Below are positions 12,025 to 19,185 of a stretch of 20,213 nt of DNA, one piece after another (within the stretch, counting starts at the first letter, position 1; every line of letters starts with the position of its first letter). Position numbers and translations under genes: made by a program. Origin of the DNA: a virus. The notes beneath the pieces are model-generated. The model was given only the letters and a program-made list of their open reading frames with translations. It was not told where the DNA came from and did no database searches. Where the stretch lies: positions 1-20,213 of the IMG/VR virus record IMGVR_UViG_3300040962_000014. One strand, given 5' to 3'.

Positions 12025-13332
12025 ATGTTTTTATCAGAAAATTTACAAGAGAAGTGGGAGCCTATTCTAGAACATTCCGATTTGCCAAAAATCGAGGACA
12101 ACTACAAGAAAGCAGTCACAGCAGTTATACTTGAAAACCAAGAGAAAGCTTTAAACGAAGACAGAGCAACTCTTGAGGAAGCTGCACCTTTAAACTCTAC
12201 TGGTAGTTCTATTTCTAACTGGGATCCAATCCTAATTTCGTTAGTAAGAAGAGCTATGCCAAATCTCGTTGCATACGACATTTGCGGTGTTCAACCTATG
12301 ACAGGCCCAACTGGTCTTATATTTGCTATGAAAGCAAGATATAACGACTATCCAACAGAAACAAGACTGAATAACTCAGAAGCTTTATTCAATGAAGCAA
12401 GAAGTGGATATTCAGGTGGTGCAGACCCAACAGCGGGCCCTGCAGACAACGACCCTGTTGGTGACCCTTTTGATGCATCTGGCCCAGAAACCTACGCAGG
12501 TGATACTGGTGCTGGAATGGCTACTTCAAGTGCAGAATCATTAGGTGACGGTGCGTCAAATCACTTTGCACAGATGTCTTTCACTATTGAGAAAGCAACT
12601 GTGACTGCAAAGTCAAGAGCACTCAAAGCAGAGTACACTTTAGAATTAGCACAAGACCTCAAAGCAATCCACGGTCTTGATGCAGAATCAGAACTTGCAA
12701 ACATTTTGTCAAGTGAGATTCTTGCTGAAATCAACAGAGAAGTTGTAAGAAATGTCAATCTTCAAGCGAAGACTGGTGCATCTGCAACTGCTTCTAGCGG
12801 AACATTCAACTTAGATGTTGATGCAAACGGTAGATGGTCTGTTGAGAAATTCAAAGGACTATTGTTCCAAATCGAAAGAGAAAGCAATGTAATTGCAAAA
12901 GAAACAAGAAGAGGTAAAGGAAACTTTATCCTATGTTCTTCTGATGTTGCATCTGCACTTTCAATGGCTGGTGTTTTAGATTACACACCTGCGTTAAACA
13001 CTAACATTAATGTTGACGACACAGGCAATACATTTGCTGGTGTTCTTAACGGAAGAGTAAAGGTCTACATTGACCCTTATGCGTCTGTTGACTACATGAC
13101 TGTTGGTTATAGAGGGTCTAACCCTTATGACGCTGGTATGTTCTATTGCCCATATGTTCCACTACAAATGGTGAGAGCAGTTGGTGAGAACACTTTCCAA
13201 CCAAAAATCGGATTCAAAACTAGATACGGTATGGTTTCAAACCCATTCGTAGGAAGCACACCTTCTGACGGTCTTGCATCTGCTGGAACAAACCAATACT
13301 ACAGAAAAATGGCAGTGTCCAACATTCTGTAA
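12025..13332 (+). CDS. 23: major capsid protein gp23
   Basis: Major head protein, an HK97-fold subunit. The precursor is 435 aa (T4, 521 aa). Clear conserved segments are SNWDPILISLVRRAMPNLVAYDICGVQPMTGPTGLIFAMKARY (about 64-106), a Ser/Gly/Asp-rich insertion (about 120-175), FTIEKATVTAKSRALKAEYTLELAQDLKAIHGLDAE (about 186-221), a GNFILCSSDVASAL block, and a C-terminal region with YMTVGYRGSNPYDAGMFYCPYVPLQM. The N-terminal propeptide probably ends at LEE/A, residues 50-53, a match to the gp21 consensus at the expected place. An AAAGGA Shine-Dalgarno lies upstream. Transcription ends at the hairpin just downstream. The DNA contains the only GATC I found in the window. Confidence 0.97.
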   Translation: MFLSENLQEKWEPILEHSDLPKIEDNYKKAVTAVILENQEKALNEDRATLEEAAPLNSTGSSISNWDPILISLVRRAMPNLVAYDICGVQPMTGPTGLIFAMKARYNDYPTETRLNNSEALFNEARSGYSGGADPTAGPADNDPVGDPFDASGPETYAGDTGAGMATSSAESLGDGASNHFAQMSFTIEKATVTAKSRALKAEYTLELAQDLKAIHGLDAESELANILSSEILAEINREVVRNVNLQAKTGASATASSGTFNLDVDANGRWSVEKFKGLLFQIERESNVIAKETRRGKGNFILCSSDVASALSMAGVLDYTPALNTNINVDDTGNTFAGVLNGRVKVYIDPYASVDYMTVGYRGSNPYDAGMFYCPYVPLQMVRAVGENTFQPKIGFKTRYGMVSNPFVGSTPSDGLASAGTNQYYRKMAVSNIL

Positions 13333-13351: not shown

Positions 13352-13379
13352 AAAACCCCTCTTTCGAGGGGTTTTTTTT
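13352..13379 (+). terminator. intrinsic terminator after gp23
   Basis: GC stem CCCCTC (13356-13361) / GAGGGG (13366-13371) with loop TTTC, extended by AAAA/TTTT and followed by eight T residues. This is a textbook rho-independent terminator 20 bp past the capsid stop and closes the gp22-gp23 unit. A weak 5-bp hairpin (AAACG/CGTTT, 13331-13346) precedes it. Confidence 0.9.
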
Positions 13380-13380
13380 C

Positions 13381-13388
13381 TCTAAATA
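13381..13388 (+). promoter_or_regulatory. candidate late promoter for the riboswitch-peptide unit
   Basis: TCTAAATA matches the late box TATAAATA at 7 of 8 positions and lies immediately after the gp23 terminator. T4 geometry puts the start at 13394, two bases before the first paired base of the riboswitch (13396), a spacing that makes it a plausible dedicated promoter. Confidence 0.5.
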
Positions 13389-13393
13389 ATACA

Positions 13394-13453
13394 ATCGTTC
13401 ATTCACTCTAAATGTAGCAGTGAACGGAAGTAGGCATGGGGCCGAAGGAACGC
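13394..13453 (+). promoter_or_regulatory. glutamine-II (Downstream-peptide/glnA-type) riboswitch
   Basis: The RNA matches the glutamine-II aptamer family as I know it. P1 is CGUUC (13396-13400) with GAACG (13448-13452). A second helix is UUCACU (13402-13407) with AGUGAA (13419-13424). These are followed by the highly conserved CGGAAGUAGG (13425-13434), a small GGC/GCC element, and the conserved CCGAAGGAACGC (13442-13453). This class binds L-glutamine. In cyanobacteria and marine phages it precedes nitrogen genes or tiny peptide genes, exactly the context here, where a YRG-motif micro-peptide begins 35 bp downstream. The region from 13454 to 13487 holds the Shine-Dalgarno GGAG (13475-13478) and so is the likely expression platform. 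No obvious anti-SD strand was found, so the direction of control is not readable. Confidence 0.88.
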
Positions 13454-13487
13454 ATTTTTGTTCAACCTTTAAACGGAGAGAATGGAA

Positions 13488-13604
13488 ATGACAAAGAAAG
13501 CTAACCTCAAGTTAGTATATCGTGGTGTTCGTCACAACGGTGAAGTCACTAAGTCAAAGCCACAGACCAAGGGTGTATACCGTGGTTCTAAGTGGGTTGC
13601 TTAA
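13488..13604 (+). CDS. riboswitch-controlled micro-peptide, DUF4278-like
   Basis: 38-aa basic peptide (MTKKANLKLVYRGVRHNG..., ending GVYRGSKWVA) with two YRG motifs, at residues 11-13 and 31-33. Short proteins with this YRG repeat (DUF4278) are the usual products downstream of the Downstream-peptide RNA in cyanobacteria and their phages. Their function is unknown. The ATG at 13488 is preferred because it is 9 bp after GGAG (13475-13478). An in-frame ATG at 13482 would add Met-Glu but sits too close to that site. It lies between the riboswitch and a GC-rich hairpin and forms a self-contained regulated unit. Expression is presumably tied to glutamine, the main nitrogen-status signal of the cell. 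It could be a regulator of host nitrogen metabolism, but that is inference. Confidence 0.8.
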   Translation: MTKKANLKLVYRGVRHNGEVTKSKPQTKGVYRGSKWVA

Positions 13605-13634
13605 AACACCTATATACTAATAGTCGAAAGGCAA

Positions 13635-13661
13635 GGGGGGTCTGGCATGTCAGATACCCCC
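13635..13661 (+). terminator. GC-rich hairpin, possible terminator
   Basis: GGGGG (13636-13640) pairs with CCCCC (13657-13661), and TCTG (13641-13644) with CAGA (13651-13654), leaving a two-base bulge (TA) and a six-base loop. It stands 31 bp after the micro-peptide stop. There is no good T-run after it (TACTATTATAA), so it may be a weak terminator or a 3'-end stabilising structure rather than a classical terminator. Confidence 0.5.
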
Positions 13662-13667
13662 TACTAT

Positions 13668-13675
13668 TATAAACA
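13668..13675 (+). promoter_or_regulatory. candidate late promoter for the 71-aa gene
   Basis: TATAAACA, 7 of 8 matches to the late box. The predicted start near 13681 leaves a 23-nt leader with AGGAGA (13693-13698) as Shine-Dalgarno for the ATG at 13704, the same leader size as for gp13 and gp22. Confidence 0.45.
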
Positions 13676-13703: not shown

Positions 13704-13919
13704 ATGTCTCAAGGAAAATCAGGGTTCGAAATCCGAGCCGAACTACTCAATCAAGCACAAGGTCTGTTAGAAGGAAATATCTACAGAAACAACGAGGCGA
13801 TTGTAGAACACAATAATAACTTCCCAAACGATAGAAAACCTTACGGTGACCAGTTCGTGTCTACGGAAGAAGTTATTGCAGTTGCAAGACAACTCAATGA
13901 GTTTGTAAACGAGAAATAA
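13704..13919 (+). CDS. conserved-looking hypothetical protein, 71 aa
   Basis: 71-aa soluble protein of unknown function. It starts MSQGKSGFEIRAELLNQAQGLLEG and is mostly helical, with a polar middle (NNEAIVEHNNNFPNDRKPYGDQF) and a second helix (STEEVIAVARQLNEFVNEK). I have an unverified impression that similar small proteins starting with SGFEIR are found near the capsid gene in other marine T4-like phages, and I cannot name a role. No signal peptide or membrane segment is seen. A strong AGGAG Shine-Dalgarno and a candidate late promoter suggest abundant late synthesis. Its neighbours (capsid upstream, tube-like protein downstream) would fit a virion or assembly protein. Confidence 0.8.
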   Translation: MSQGKSGFEIRAELLNQAQGLLEGNIYRNNEAIVEHNNNFPNDRKPYGDQFVSTEEVIAVARQLNEFVNEK

Positions 13920-14950: not shown

Positions 14951-15033
14951 TAGAAACACTTGCACAAGTATTAATGGTGGTTTCAGTTATGTTAGGAATA
15001 GCTATCATATGGTATGAGGAAATTATAAAATGA
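14947..15033 (+). CDS. tiny predicted membrane peptide, 28 aa
   Basis: 28-aa ORF (MIETLAQVLMVVSVMLGIAI, then IWYEEIIK). It has one hydrophobic segment of about 17 residues (7-23) flanked by an acidic N-terminus and a charged C-terminus, consistent with a single-span membrane peptide. It overlaps uvsY (ATGA at 14947-14950) and the downstream oxygenase start (ATGA at 15030-15033), so it exactly fills the gap between two genes, a strong sign of a real, translationally coupled gene. There is no upstream Shine-Dalgarno beyond coupling, and no recognised family. Confidence 0.6.
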   Translation: MIETLAQVLMVVSVMLGIAIIWYEEIIK

Positions 15034-15722
15034 TTTATCATTCTTATTGTTGTATACTACCAAAATTCATGACCAAGGAAGAGGTGGATTATATACATGG
15101 ATACTCTAGAAGTCTTCCTATTAACGAAGCAAGAATAGGTGGTTCTGTGACCGATTCAGATAGTCACCAATCTAGATTCACAGATAAAACTGGTTATGGT
15201 AATAGTGAGATAAGACAATCTACTAATAAGTGGATAGACCACAATGACGAAAAGTTTCGAGTCGATATAAAACAAAAAATATTTGACGGTATGGTTCAAG
15301 CAAATGAACAGTGTAATTGGCGTTATGAAATAACTGATATGGAACATTGGCAATATACAGTTTATGAAGCTCAAGAAGATAAACCAACTGGTGACTTTTA
15401 TACATGGCATACAGACGCAGGTGCAGACCCATATTCAGATGGGACAATAAGAAAGATATCATGTTCAGTTCAACTATCAGACCCCGATGATTATGAAGGT
15501 GGTCATTTCCAGTGGATTGAATCTGCAAAAGTTTTTGACCGTATCAAAAAAAGAAGTGGTGATATTAGATTAGACGAATTGATTCACACTGCACCTATGA
15601 GTGGAAGAGAGTTAGGTTCACTAATTGTTTTCCCTTCTTGGTTGCACCACCAAGTCACACCAGTCACCCACGGAGTAAGAAAATCTCTAGTAGTATGGAA
15701 CAAAGGATGGCCTCTGAAATAA
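15030..15722 (+). CDS. 2-oxoglutarate-Fe(II) dioxygenase
   Basis: 230-aa oxygenase of the prolyl-4-hydroxylase-like superfamily, using 2-oxoglutarate, O2 and Fe(II). The iron facial triad is visible: H127 and D129 in WHTDAG, and H207 in PSWLHHQVTPV. R217 in HGVRKSLVVW would hold 2-oxoglutarate. The double-stranded beta-helix is also marked by RKISCSVQLSDPDDYEGGHFQW (141-162), with GG as in other phage members. Such genes are frequent in marine T4-like phages. The substrate (protein, nucleobase or small molecule) cannot be read. The ATG overlaps the preceding peptide stop, and its C-terminus overlaps the uvsW start by 16 bp, so it is embedded in the recombination operon. Confidence 0.9.
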   Translation: MIYHSYCCILPKFMTKEEVDYIHGYSRSLPINEARIGGSVTDSDSHQSRFTDKTGYGNSEIRQSTNKWIDHNDEKFRVDIKQKIFDGMVQANEQCNWRYEITDMEHWQYTVYEAQEDKPTGDFYTWHTDAGADPYSDGTIRKISCSVQLSDPDDYEGGHFQWIESAKVFDRIKKRSGDIRLDELIHTAPMSGRELGSLIVFPSWLHHQVTPVTHGVRKSLVVWNKGWPLK

Positions 15723-18624: not shown

Positions 18625-19185
18625 ATGACTACGAAAAAAGACCCTAAAAAAGCAGAACACTATGTTAACAACAAAGAGTTCACTTTGGCAGTCTCCGAGT
18701 TTAACGAAAAAGTAAAACTTGCAGAATCAAAAGGCAAAGAGCCACCTAGAATGACTGAATATATCGGTGAGTGTATCTATAAGATTGCAACCCGTTTATC
18801 CACTCGTCCTAATTTTATCAATTATACATACCGTGACGAAATGATATGTGATGCAATTGAAAATTGTATTCAGTATATCGGTAATTTCAATACGGAAAAG
18901 TCAAACAATGCGTTCGCATATGTCACTCAAATTTGTTATTATGCATTCCTTCGAAGGATACAAAAGGAGAAGAAACAGGTTTTCATTAAACAGAAATCTA
19001 TCGAAGAATCTAATATAACTATGGACGCTTACACAACCATAGACGGGGAACATGACCCAACTCTTACAAACACTAATGTAGAGTGGATGCAAGAGCATAT
19101 GAATCGGGTTGAATACGAACCAAGAAAATCAAAAAGACAAAAGAAAGTAAAAGAGAATACTAATTTAGAAAAATTTACTGAATGA
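18625..19185 (+). CDS. 55: gp55 late-transcription sigma factor
   Basis: Phage sigma factor that directs host RNA polymerase to TATAAATA late promoters, aided in T4 by gp33 and the gp45 sliding clamp. The protein is 186 aa, essentially the length of T4 gp55 (185 aa). Typical segments are PRMTEYIGECIYKIATRLSTRPNFINYTYRDEMICDAIENCIQYIGNFN (about 41-89), which corresponds to the sigma region-2 like core-binding part, and FAYVTQICYYAFLRRIQKEKKQ (about 97-118), which corresponds to promoter recognition. The short C-terminal NLEKFTE resembles the hydrophobic clamp-binding tail of the family. Host-type promoter upstream, no Shine-Dalgarno, possibly leaderless. Its stop overlaps the gp47 start (ATGA). 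Confidence 0.94.
   Translation: MTTKKDPKKAEHYVNNKEFTLAVSEFNEKVKLAESKGKEPPRMTEYIGECIYKIATRLSTRPNFINYTYRDEMICDAIENCIQYIGNFNTEKSNNAFAYVTQICYYAFLRRIQKEKKQVFIKQKSIEESNITMDAYTTIDGEHDPTLTNTNVEWMQEHMNRVEYEPRKSKRQKKVKENTNLEKFTE

Follow-up and report, generated by a model that had tools for sequence, protein, structure and literature searches.

In cyanobacteria, glutamine-I (glnA) riboswitches (RF01739) precede genes with a DUF4278 domain, such as gifB, which encodes IF17 (PMC6316151). The domain forms the N-terminal part of this GS-inactivating factor and, although reported to be dispensable on its own for IF17 activity, stabilises the protein. The glutamine-II class (Downstream-peptide, RF01704) is found in marine picocyanobacteria, where the aptamer is followed by an open reading frame (ORF) of 17–100 amino acids (aa), in some cases encoding DUF4278 (PMC2864571, PMC6698751). 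The measured riboswitches are ON switches in both type 1 (PMC6316151) and type 2 (PMC6698751). A 2018 review considered glutamine riboswitches to be confined to cyanobacteria (PMC6316151); marine metagenomic cases with nitrogen genes had already been listed by Weinberg in 2010 (PMC2864571). RF01739 is also present in Melnitz and Mosig, related T4-like phages of OM43 and SAR11, and the Melnitz riboswitch has been published as controlling ssrA (PMC9004378).

The window, that is, the entire 20,213-base IMG/VR entry analysed here, comes from the structural block of a T4-like marine phage, with genes for head and tail connectors, terminase, sheath, portal, scaffold and gp23 as well as UvsY, a UvsW-type helicase and a gp55-like late sigma factor. 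A 2OG-Fe(II) oxygenase-like gene (phrog_61; 15030–15722) is located between uvsY and the helicase gene. The gp23 protein is 67% identical to that of OM43 phage Melnitz and 66% identical to that of Pelagibacter phage HTVC008M. Behind the gp23 gene, an earlier reading of the letters without database searches (hereafter, the sequence-only reading) had placed a self-contained unit, composed of a glutamine-riboswitch aptamer and a DUF4278-like micropeptide, in the order terminator, late box, aptamer, Shine-Dalgarno (SD) sequence, 38-aa ORF and G+C-rich hairpin; the coordinates and folds bear out both the unit and the order (Table 1). Judged by sequence, the locus securely adds a further representative to an established riboswitch class, in unusual surroundings, and exemplifies a widespread phage cassette, of which we found no description in the open-access literature searched.

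Table 1. Features of the riboswitch–micropeptide cassette and its surroundings in the window
Feature	Position	Strand	Evidence or remark
gp23 major capsid protein gene	12025..13332	+	Pfam PF07068, E 6.8e-147; upstream neighbour of the cassette
Intrinsic terminator separating gp23 from the cassette	13352..13375	+	10-pair stem and T run; kept in L107
T4-type late promoter box TCTAAATA (candidate)	13381..13388	+	One mismatch to TATAAATA; perfect TATAAATA in L107
Glutamine-I (glnA) riboswitch aptamer	13394..13456	+	RF01739, 59.8 bits
P4 expression-platform hairpin, abutting P1	13453..13490	+	Fold; covariation over viral loci
Shine-Dalgarno GGAGAG	13475..13480	+	Read directly
38-aa YRG (DUF4278-like) micropeptide gene	13488..13604	+	ATG 13488; DUF4278 E 0.0016; homologs; dN/dS about 0.2
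G+C-rich hairpin closing the cassette	about 13618..13669	+	Fold, -20.5 kcal/mol; without T run
71-aa ORF following the slot in sister phages	13704..13919	+	Seen in sister-phage loci
gp55-like late sigma factor gene	18625..19185	+	phrog_234, E 8e-59; expected reader of late boxes

The window shares with the gifB/IF17 case the aptamer class, the downstream DUF4278 domain, the short leader and the nearby SD, but differs in that the genome is that of a phage, the 38-aa peptide stands alone without the C-terminus of IF17 or PirA, the putative promoter is of a late type, the capsid gene is adjacent, and the SD hairpin abuts P1. The resemblance to the picocyanobacterial riboswitch lies in the arrangement, a glutamine aptamer ahead of a short ORF, whereas the aptamer itself belongs to the other class. 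RF01739 matched over the full model (positions 1–53; E 3.4e-11 for the whole window against 4227 Rfam families on both strands), exceeding the curated cut-off of 35 bits, and the predicted stems are P1 (13396–13400/13448–13452), P2 (13402–13407/13419–13424) and P3 (13433–13435/13441–13443). The sequence-only reading had assigned the RNA to glutamine-II and proposed both covariance models as a check; RF01739 came out positive, whereas RF01704 reached only 10.8 bits over a partial region, below its gathering score of 33, and glutamine-II identity was rejected on this score. The RNA is thus classified by sequence as a class I glutamine aptamer and presumably binds glutamine. A blastn search of phage records with the aptamer gave no matches.

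An identical copy of the cassette is present in L041, and a 79.6-kb contig, L107, carries the same cassette in the same place. The gp23 of L107 is only 86% identical to that of the window at the protein level, while the leader is nearly invariant, with one substitution in the aptamer and a 2-nt deletion beside the SD; at the position of the G+C-rich hairpin, L107 has another, different hairpin.

The late box noticed in the sequence-only reading was confirmed with its single mismatch and lies 7 nt ahead of P1. This type of box is enriched before viral aptamers: among the matches listed, 48 of 94 distinct viral leaders carry TATAAATA with at most one mismatch 5–12 nt before P1, and 34 carry it exactly, whereas shuffling yields averages of 4.5 and 0.4, respectively, and the count for leaders in bacterial genomes is 6 of 99. 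From a T4 late promoter so placed, transcription would be expected to initiate near the first aptamer nucleotide.

Behind the aptamer, the fold pairs 13453–13463 with 13480–13490, the latter including the start codon, such that the SD lies within the inner stem of P4. The tail that follows P1 differs between viral loci (CACCU, CAUCU, CACUU and others), with matching changes on the SD side, the tail classes being fitted to their own SD by Watson-Crick pairing (CACCU 33/34, CAUCU 0/34). With the 3' strand anchored by the SD alone, all five P4 pairs form in 58 of the 79 viral loci among the matches listed, compared with 38 (maximum 46) under permutation, and the variable positions contain 137 Watson-Crick pairs, against 96 (maximum 115). 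Pairing of the 5' strand of P2 (CAUUCACUC) with GAGAGAAUG as an anti-SD was also considered and was dropped, the same P2 sequence being found in loci with unrelated SDs.

P4 starts at the base immediately after P1, and the two stems can form simultaneously. This geometry would suit an OFF switch in which P1, once glutamine is bound, stacks coaxially on P4 and holds the SD closed, so that the peptide would be made only when glutamine is low during virion production. We regard this as rather unlikely, given that the measured type 1 and type 2 switches activate, and on that precedent we favour the ON sign; the assimilation genes, too, speak against it, as their leaders are much longer than those in front of micropeptides and so probably contain a second, different kind of expression platform. 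Tandem aptamers with such leaders precede glutamine synthetase and ammonium-transporter genes in L359, L360, L364 and L377 (SAR86 order) and in L402 and L404 (SAR116 order). When P1 was enforced or forbidden in simulations, SD accessibility was hardly altered, and neither an opening nor a closing of the SD on P1 formation, nor a clear sign of the switch, emerged.

The reading we prefer, to which we give somewhat better than even credence, is that of a late-transcribed phage glutamine-I cassette that switches translation of a peptide touching the nitrogen metabolism of the host; what is inferred here is the binding of the ligand, the sign, the host and the target of the peptide. Transcription from the late box would start near the first aptamer base, abundant glutamine in the infected cell would stabilise the aptamer, and a change at the P1/P4 junction would alter access to the SD, most likely turning translation on, as in the experimentally examined members of both glutamine classes. 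The peptide might then act on the control of host nitrogen assimilation (glutamine synthetase, PII or similar), like the DUF4278 small proteins under the same riboswitch in cyanobacteria.

The sequence-only reading had described the product as a 38-aa, YRG-motif, DUF4278-like peptide. On its own, the match to DUF4278 (PF14105) is weak, at 19.0–19.2 bits (E 0.0016–0.0018), under the Pfam cut-off of 25.3 bits, but the model is matched by every one of 20 aligned YRG peptides encoded downstream of an aptamer of this class, with the first YRG invariant and a best E of 1.7e-15 (from the cyanobacterial member or a closely similar phage peptide), and the family profile aligns with IF17-like proteins (hhalign, 94.6%). 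Through these intermediates, the peptide is identified by sequence as a short DUF4278-like protein. It ends after the YRG repeats, without the C-terminal effector domain of IF17 and PirA and without an NCBIfam PirA match. The AlphaFold model (pLDDT 77, pTM 0.29) predicts two beta-hairpins with a YRG turn at the centre of each and is credible for local shape only. Searches of the PDB by sequence and by fold returned nothing significant, a viral fold search gave weak matches only, some of them to cyanophage proteins, and tblastn of the peptide against phage records gave no matches.

Between the window and L107, the ORF differs by nine nucleotides, distributed 1/3/5 over the three codon positions (dN 0.047, dS 0.224), a pattern indicative of purifying selection. 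The micropeptides are tiny and differ between phages, which might mean that what counts is the RNA or its being translated (for example, as an sRNA or a leader peptide) and that the product is irrelevant. The low dN/dS of this pair and the YRG conserved throughout the 20 homologs make this very improbable, as does the termination of the unit in a hairpin, with no conserved gene directly behind it in all relatives.

As to what the peptide might do, the DUF4278 domain occurs in cyanobacterial nitrogen-control proteins (PMC8092223), so that, by analogy, the phage peptide may reasonably be expected to take part in nitrogen regulation. In one cyanobacterial locus (L132:5531-5956, plus strand), the DUF4278 protein encoded behind a glutamine-I riboswitch has a PirA domain at its C-terminus (NF050139, E 4e-16), tying DUF4278 to PII control.

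The placement behind the capsid gene, which had seemed striking from the window alone, recurs with different peptides in at least 13 T4-like and at least 18 T7-like loci, some of them redundant. In sister phages with gp23 83–89% identical, the contents of this slot vary: the window, L041 and L107 have YRG; L006/L256 (in tandem) and L045 have a riboswitch with a TDNPFYP-type peptide; L255, L260, L261 and L262 have no riboswitch but do have the 71-aa ORF; and L253, L257 and L259 have neither. The 71-aa ORF (KSGFEIRA...LNEFVNEK in the window) is retained by sister phages at the gp23 slot and has no family match. In more distant T4-like phages, the same slot holds YRG (L052, L064) or YCR (L003, L018, L035, L095, L105, L118) peptides. 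The site thus appears, from these comparisons, to be a cassette slot filled with different micropeptides. Among the matches listed, the cassette also lies 41–60 nt behind another capsid family (phrog_267, T7-like phages) in 18 loci, 15 of which encode YCR peptides; examples of this major head protein followed by the glutamine-I aptamer in T7-like marine phages are L014, L017, L027, L028, L047 and L102, among others. Altogether, a major capsid gene directly precedes the cassette in at least 31 of 121 viral clusters, redundant loci counted.

The variable presence of the cassette among sister phages, together with the fact that no phage micropeptide has an established function, could also point to passenger DNA, that is, a host-derived aptamer and peptide hitch-hiking in a gap that tolerates them downstream of a gene with strong expression and of little use to the phage. 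We consider this improbable in view of the selection on the ORF, the conserved aptamer and the covarying P4, the phage-type late box positioned for a start at the aptamer, and the recurrence behind two capsid families.

Across the viral collection, the exact conserved aptamer core is present in at least 119 IMG/VR stretches (partly redundant, near-duplicates included), and an SD and a tiny basic ORF follow nearly every viral aptamer at 17–37 nt, among the matches listed. By single-linkage clustering, the micropeptides form at least seven families of three or more members, plus singletons: YRG joined with TDNPFYP and NWQL forms, YCR, STNNW, RNRAW, NFKWDL, YQWK and FVQYLK. The median pI of the families is 9.5–11, and those other than YRG show no similarity to IF17-like proteins. 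The YRG–TDNPFYP join runs via chimeric peptides, and single linkage may over-merge; in these chimeras (L022:2561-2707, minus strand; L043:5624-5770, plus strand), SAR86-type N- and C-termini (MTKYEEAR..., YITDNPFYP) surround an internal YRG. Tandem aptamers, as already reported for glnA RNAs (PMC2864571), occur in 22 of 121 viral clusters among the matches listed.

In bacterial genomes, the aptamer pattern accompanies SAR11-type glnA and amtB, SAR86 glutamate synthase and glutamine synthetase, and cyanobacterial DUF4278 genes, as well as orphan micropeptide genes in SAR86, SAR116-type and betaproteobacterial chromosomes. RF01739 scores above the cut-off in 79 of 199 SAR86-order, 8 of 17 betaproteobacterial-family and 9 of 101 SAR116-order genomes. 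Phages and chromosomes have in common the families TDNPFYP (SAR86), YCR (betaproteobacteria) and YQWK (SAR116-type), and YRG follows the same riboswitch in cyanobacteria.

The P2 sequence of the window (UUCACUCUAAAUGUAGCAGUGAA) exactly matches that of several phages with SAR86-type peptides, and two close relatives have that peptide type in the same slot; on these grounds we infer a SAR86-like host, with the chances about evenly balanced. SAR86-order genomes yielded no close relative of gp23 (best 64–67% identity), and 162 SAR11-type-order genomes yielded no gp23. The psbA gene is present in 7 of 49 records tested, all seven with YRG peptides and, given psbA, cyanophages; none was found in the 79.6 kb of L107.

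More generally, and with somewhat less than even confidence, we suggest that several marine phage lineages carry interchangeable cassettes of riboswitch and host-clade micropeptide, transcribed late and often located behind the capsid gene, that would read the nitrogen state and reset host nitrogen assimilation. Much of the surface ocean is nitrogen-limited. If phages sense glutamine by host-type riboswitches and respond with host-type micropeptides, this would be a compact and experimentally accessible form of metabolic takeover. The SAR86, SAR116-type and betaproteobacterial micropeptides would then be undescribed nitrogen regulators, the cassettes could serve as host-prediction markers, and a riboswitch called cyanobacteria-restricted in 2018 would extend to micropeptide genes of these three groups; the ssrA reading of the Melnitz riboswitch would also be corrected.

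The riboswitches of Melnitz and Mosig each have a micropeptide ORF behind them and, unlike that of the window, lie elsewhere than behind gp23. In Melnitz (L127), the tmRNA model ends at 1891 and the aptamer occupies 1899–1947, that is, 3' of ssrA; because the aptamer lies after the tmRNA, the published control of ssrA looks wrong, and the locus is better read as a micropeptide cassette. An unannotated 32-aa ORF (MTLYQQWCYLKAQKEYRRRQKILMYFRIRLKG) of the YCR family, as found behind the betaproteobacterial riboswitch, begins 26 nt behind the aptamer. At this place (MZ577096.1, about 46398–46567; L127:1899-2070) the deposit annotates an opposite-strand hypothetical CDS instead. The Mosig aptamer precedes Mosig_00116, a protein of the NFKWDL family. 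Synechococcus phages S-PM2 (S-PM2p190) and DSL-LC03 likewise encode a YRG peptide, with an upstream RF01739 match just below the cut-off (33.3 and 34.2 bits, respectively); unlike the window, these are cyanophages in which the ORFs are not behind gp23 and are annotated as hypothetical proteins only. In S-PM2 (AJ630128.1; L414:1414-1671), S-PM2p190 lies behind speD, with the RF01739 match 30 nt upstream. In cyanobacteria, the aptamer also precedes a family of hydrophobic, membrane-like ORFs of 67–75 aa (L133, L140, L143, L144, L146, L168, L177 and others).
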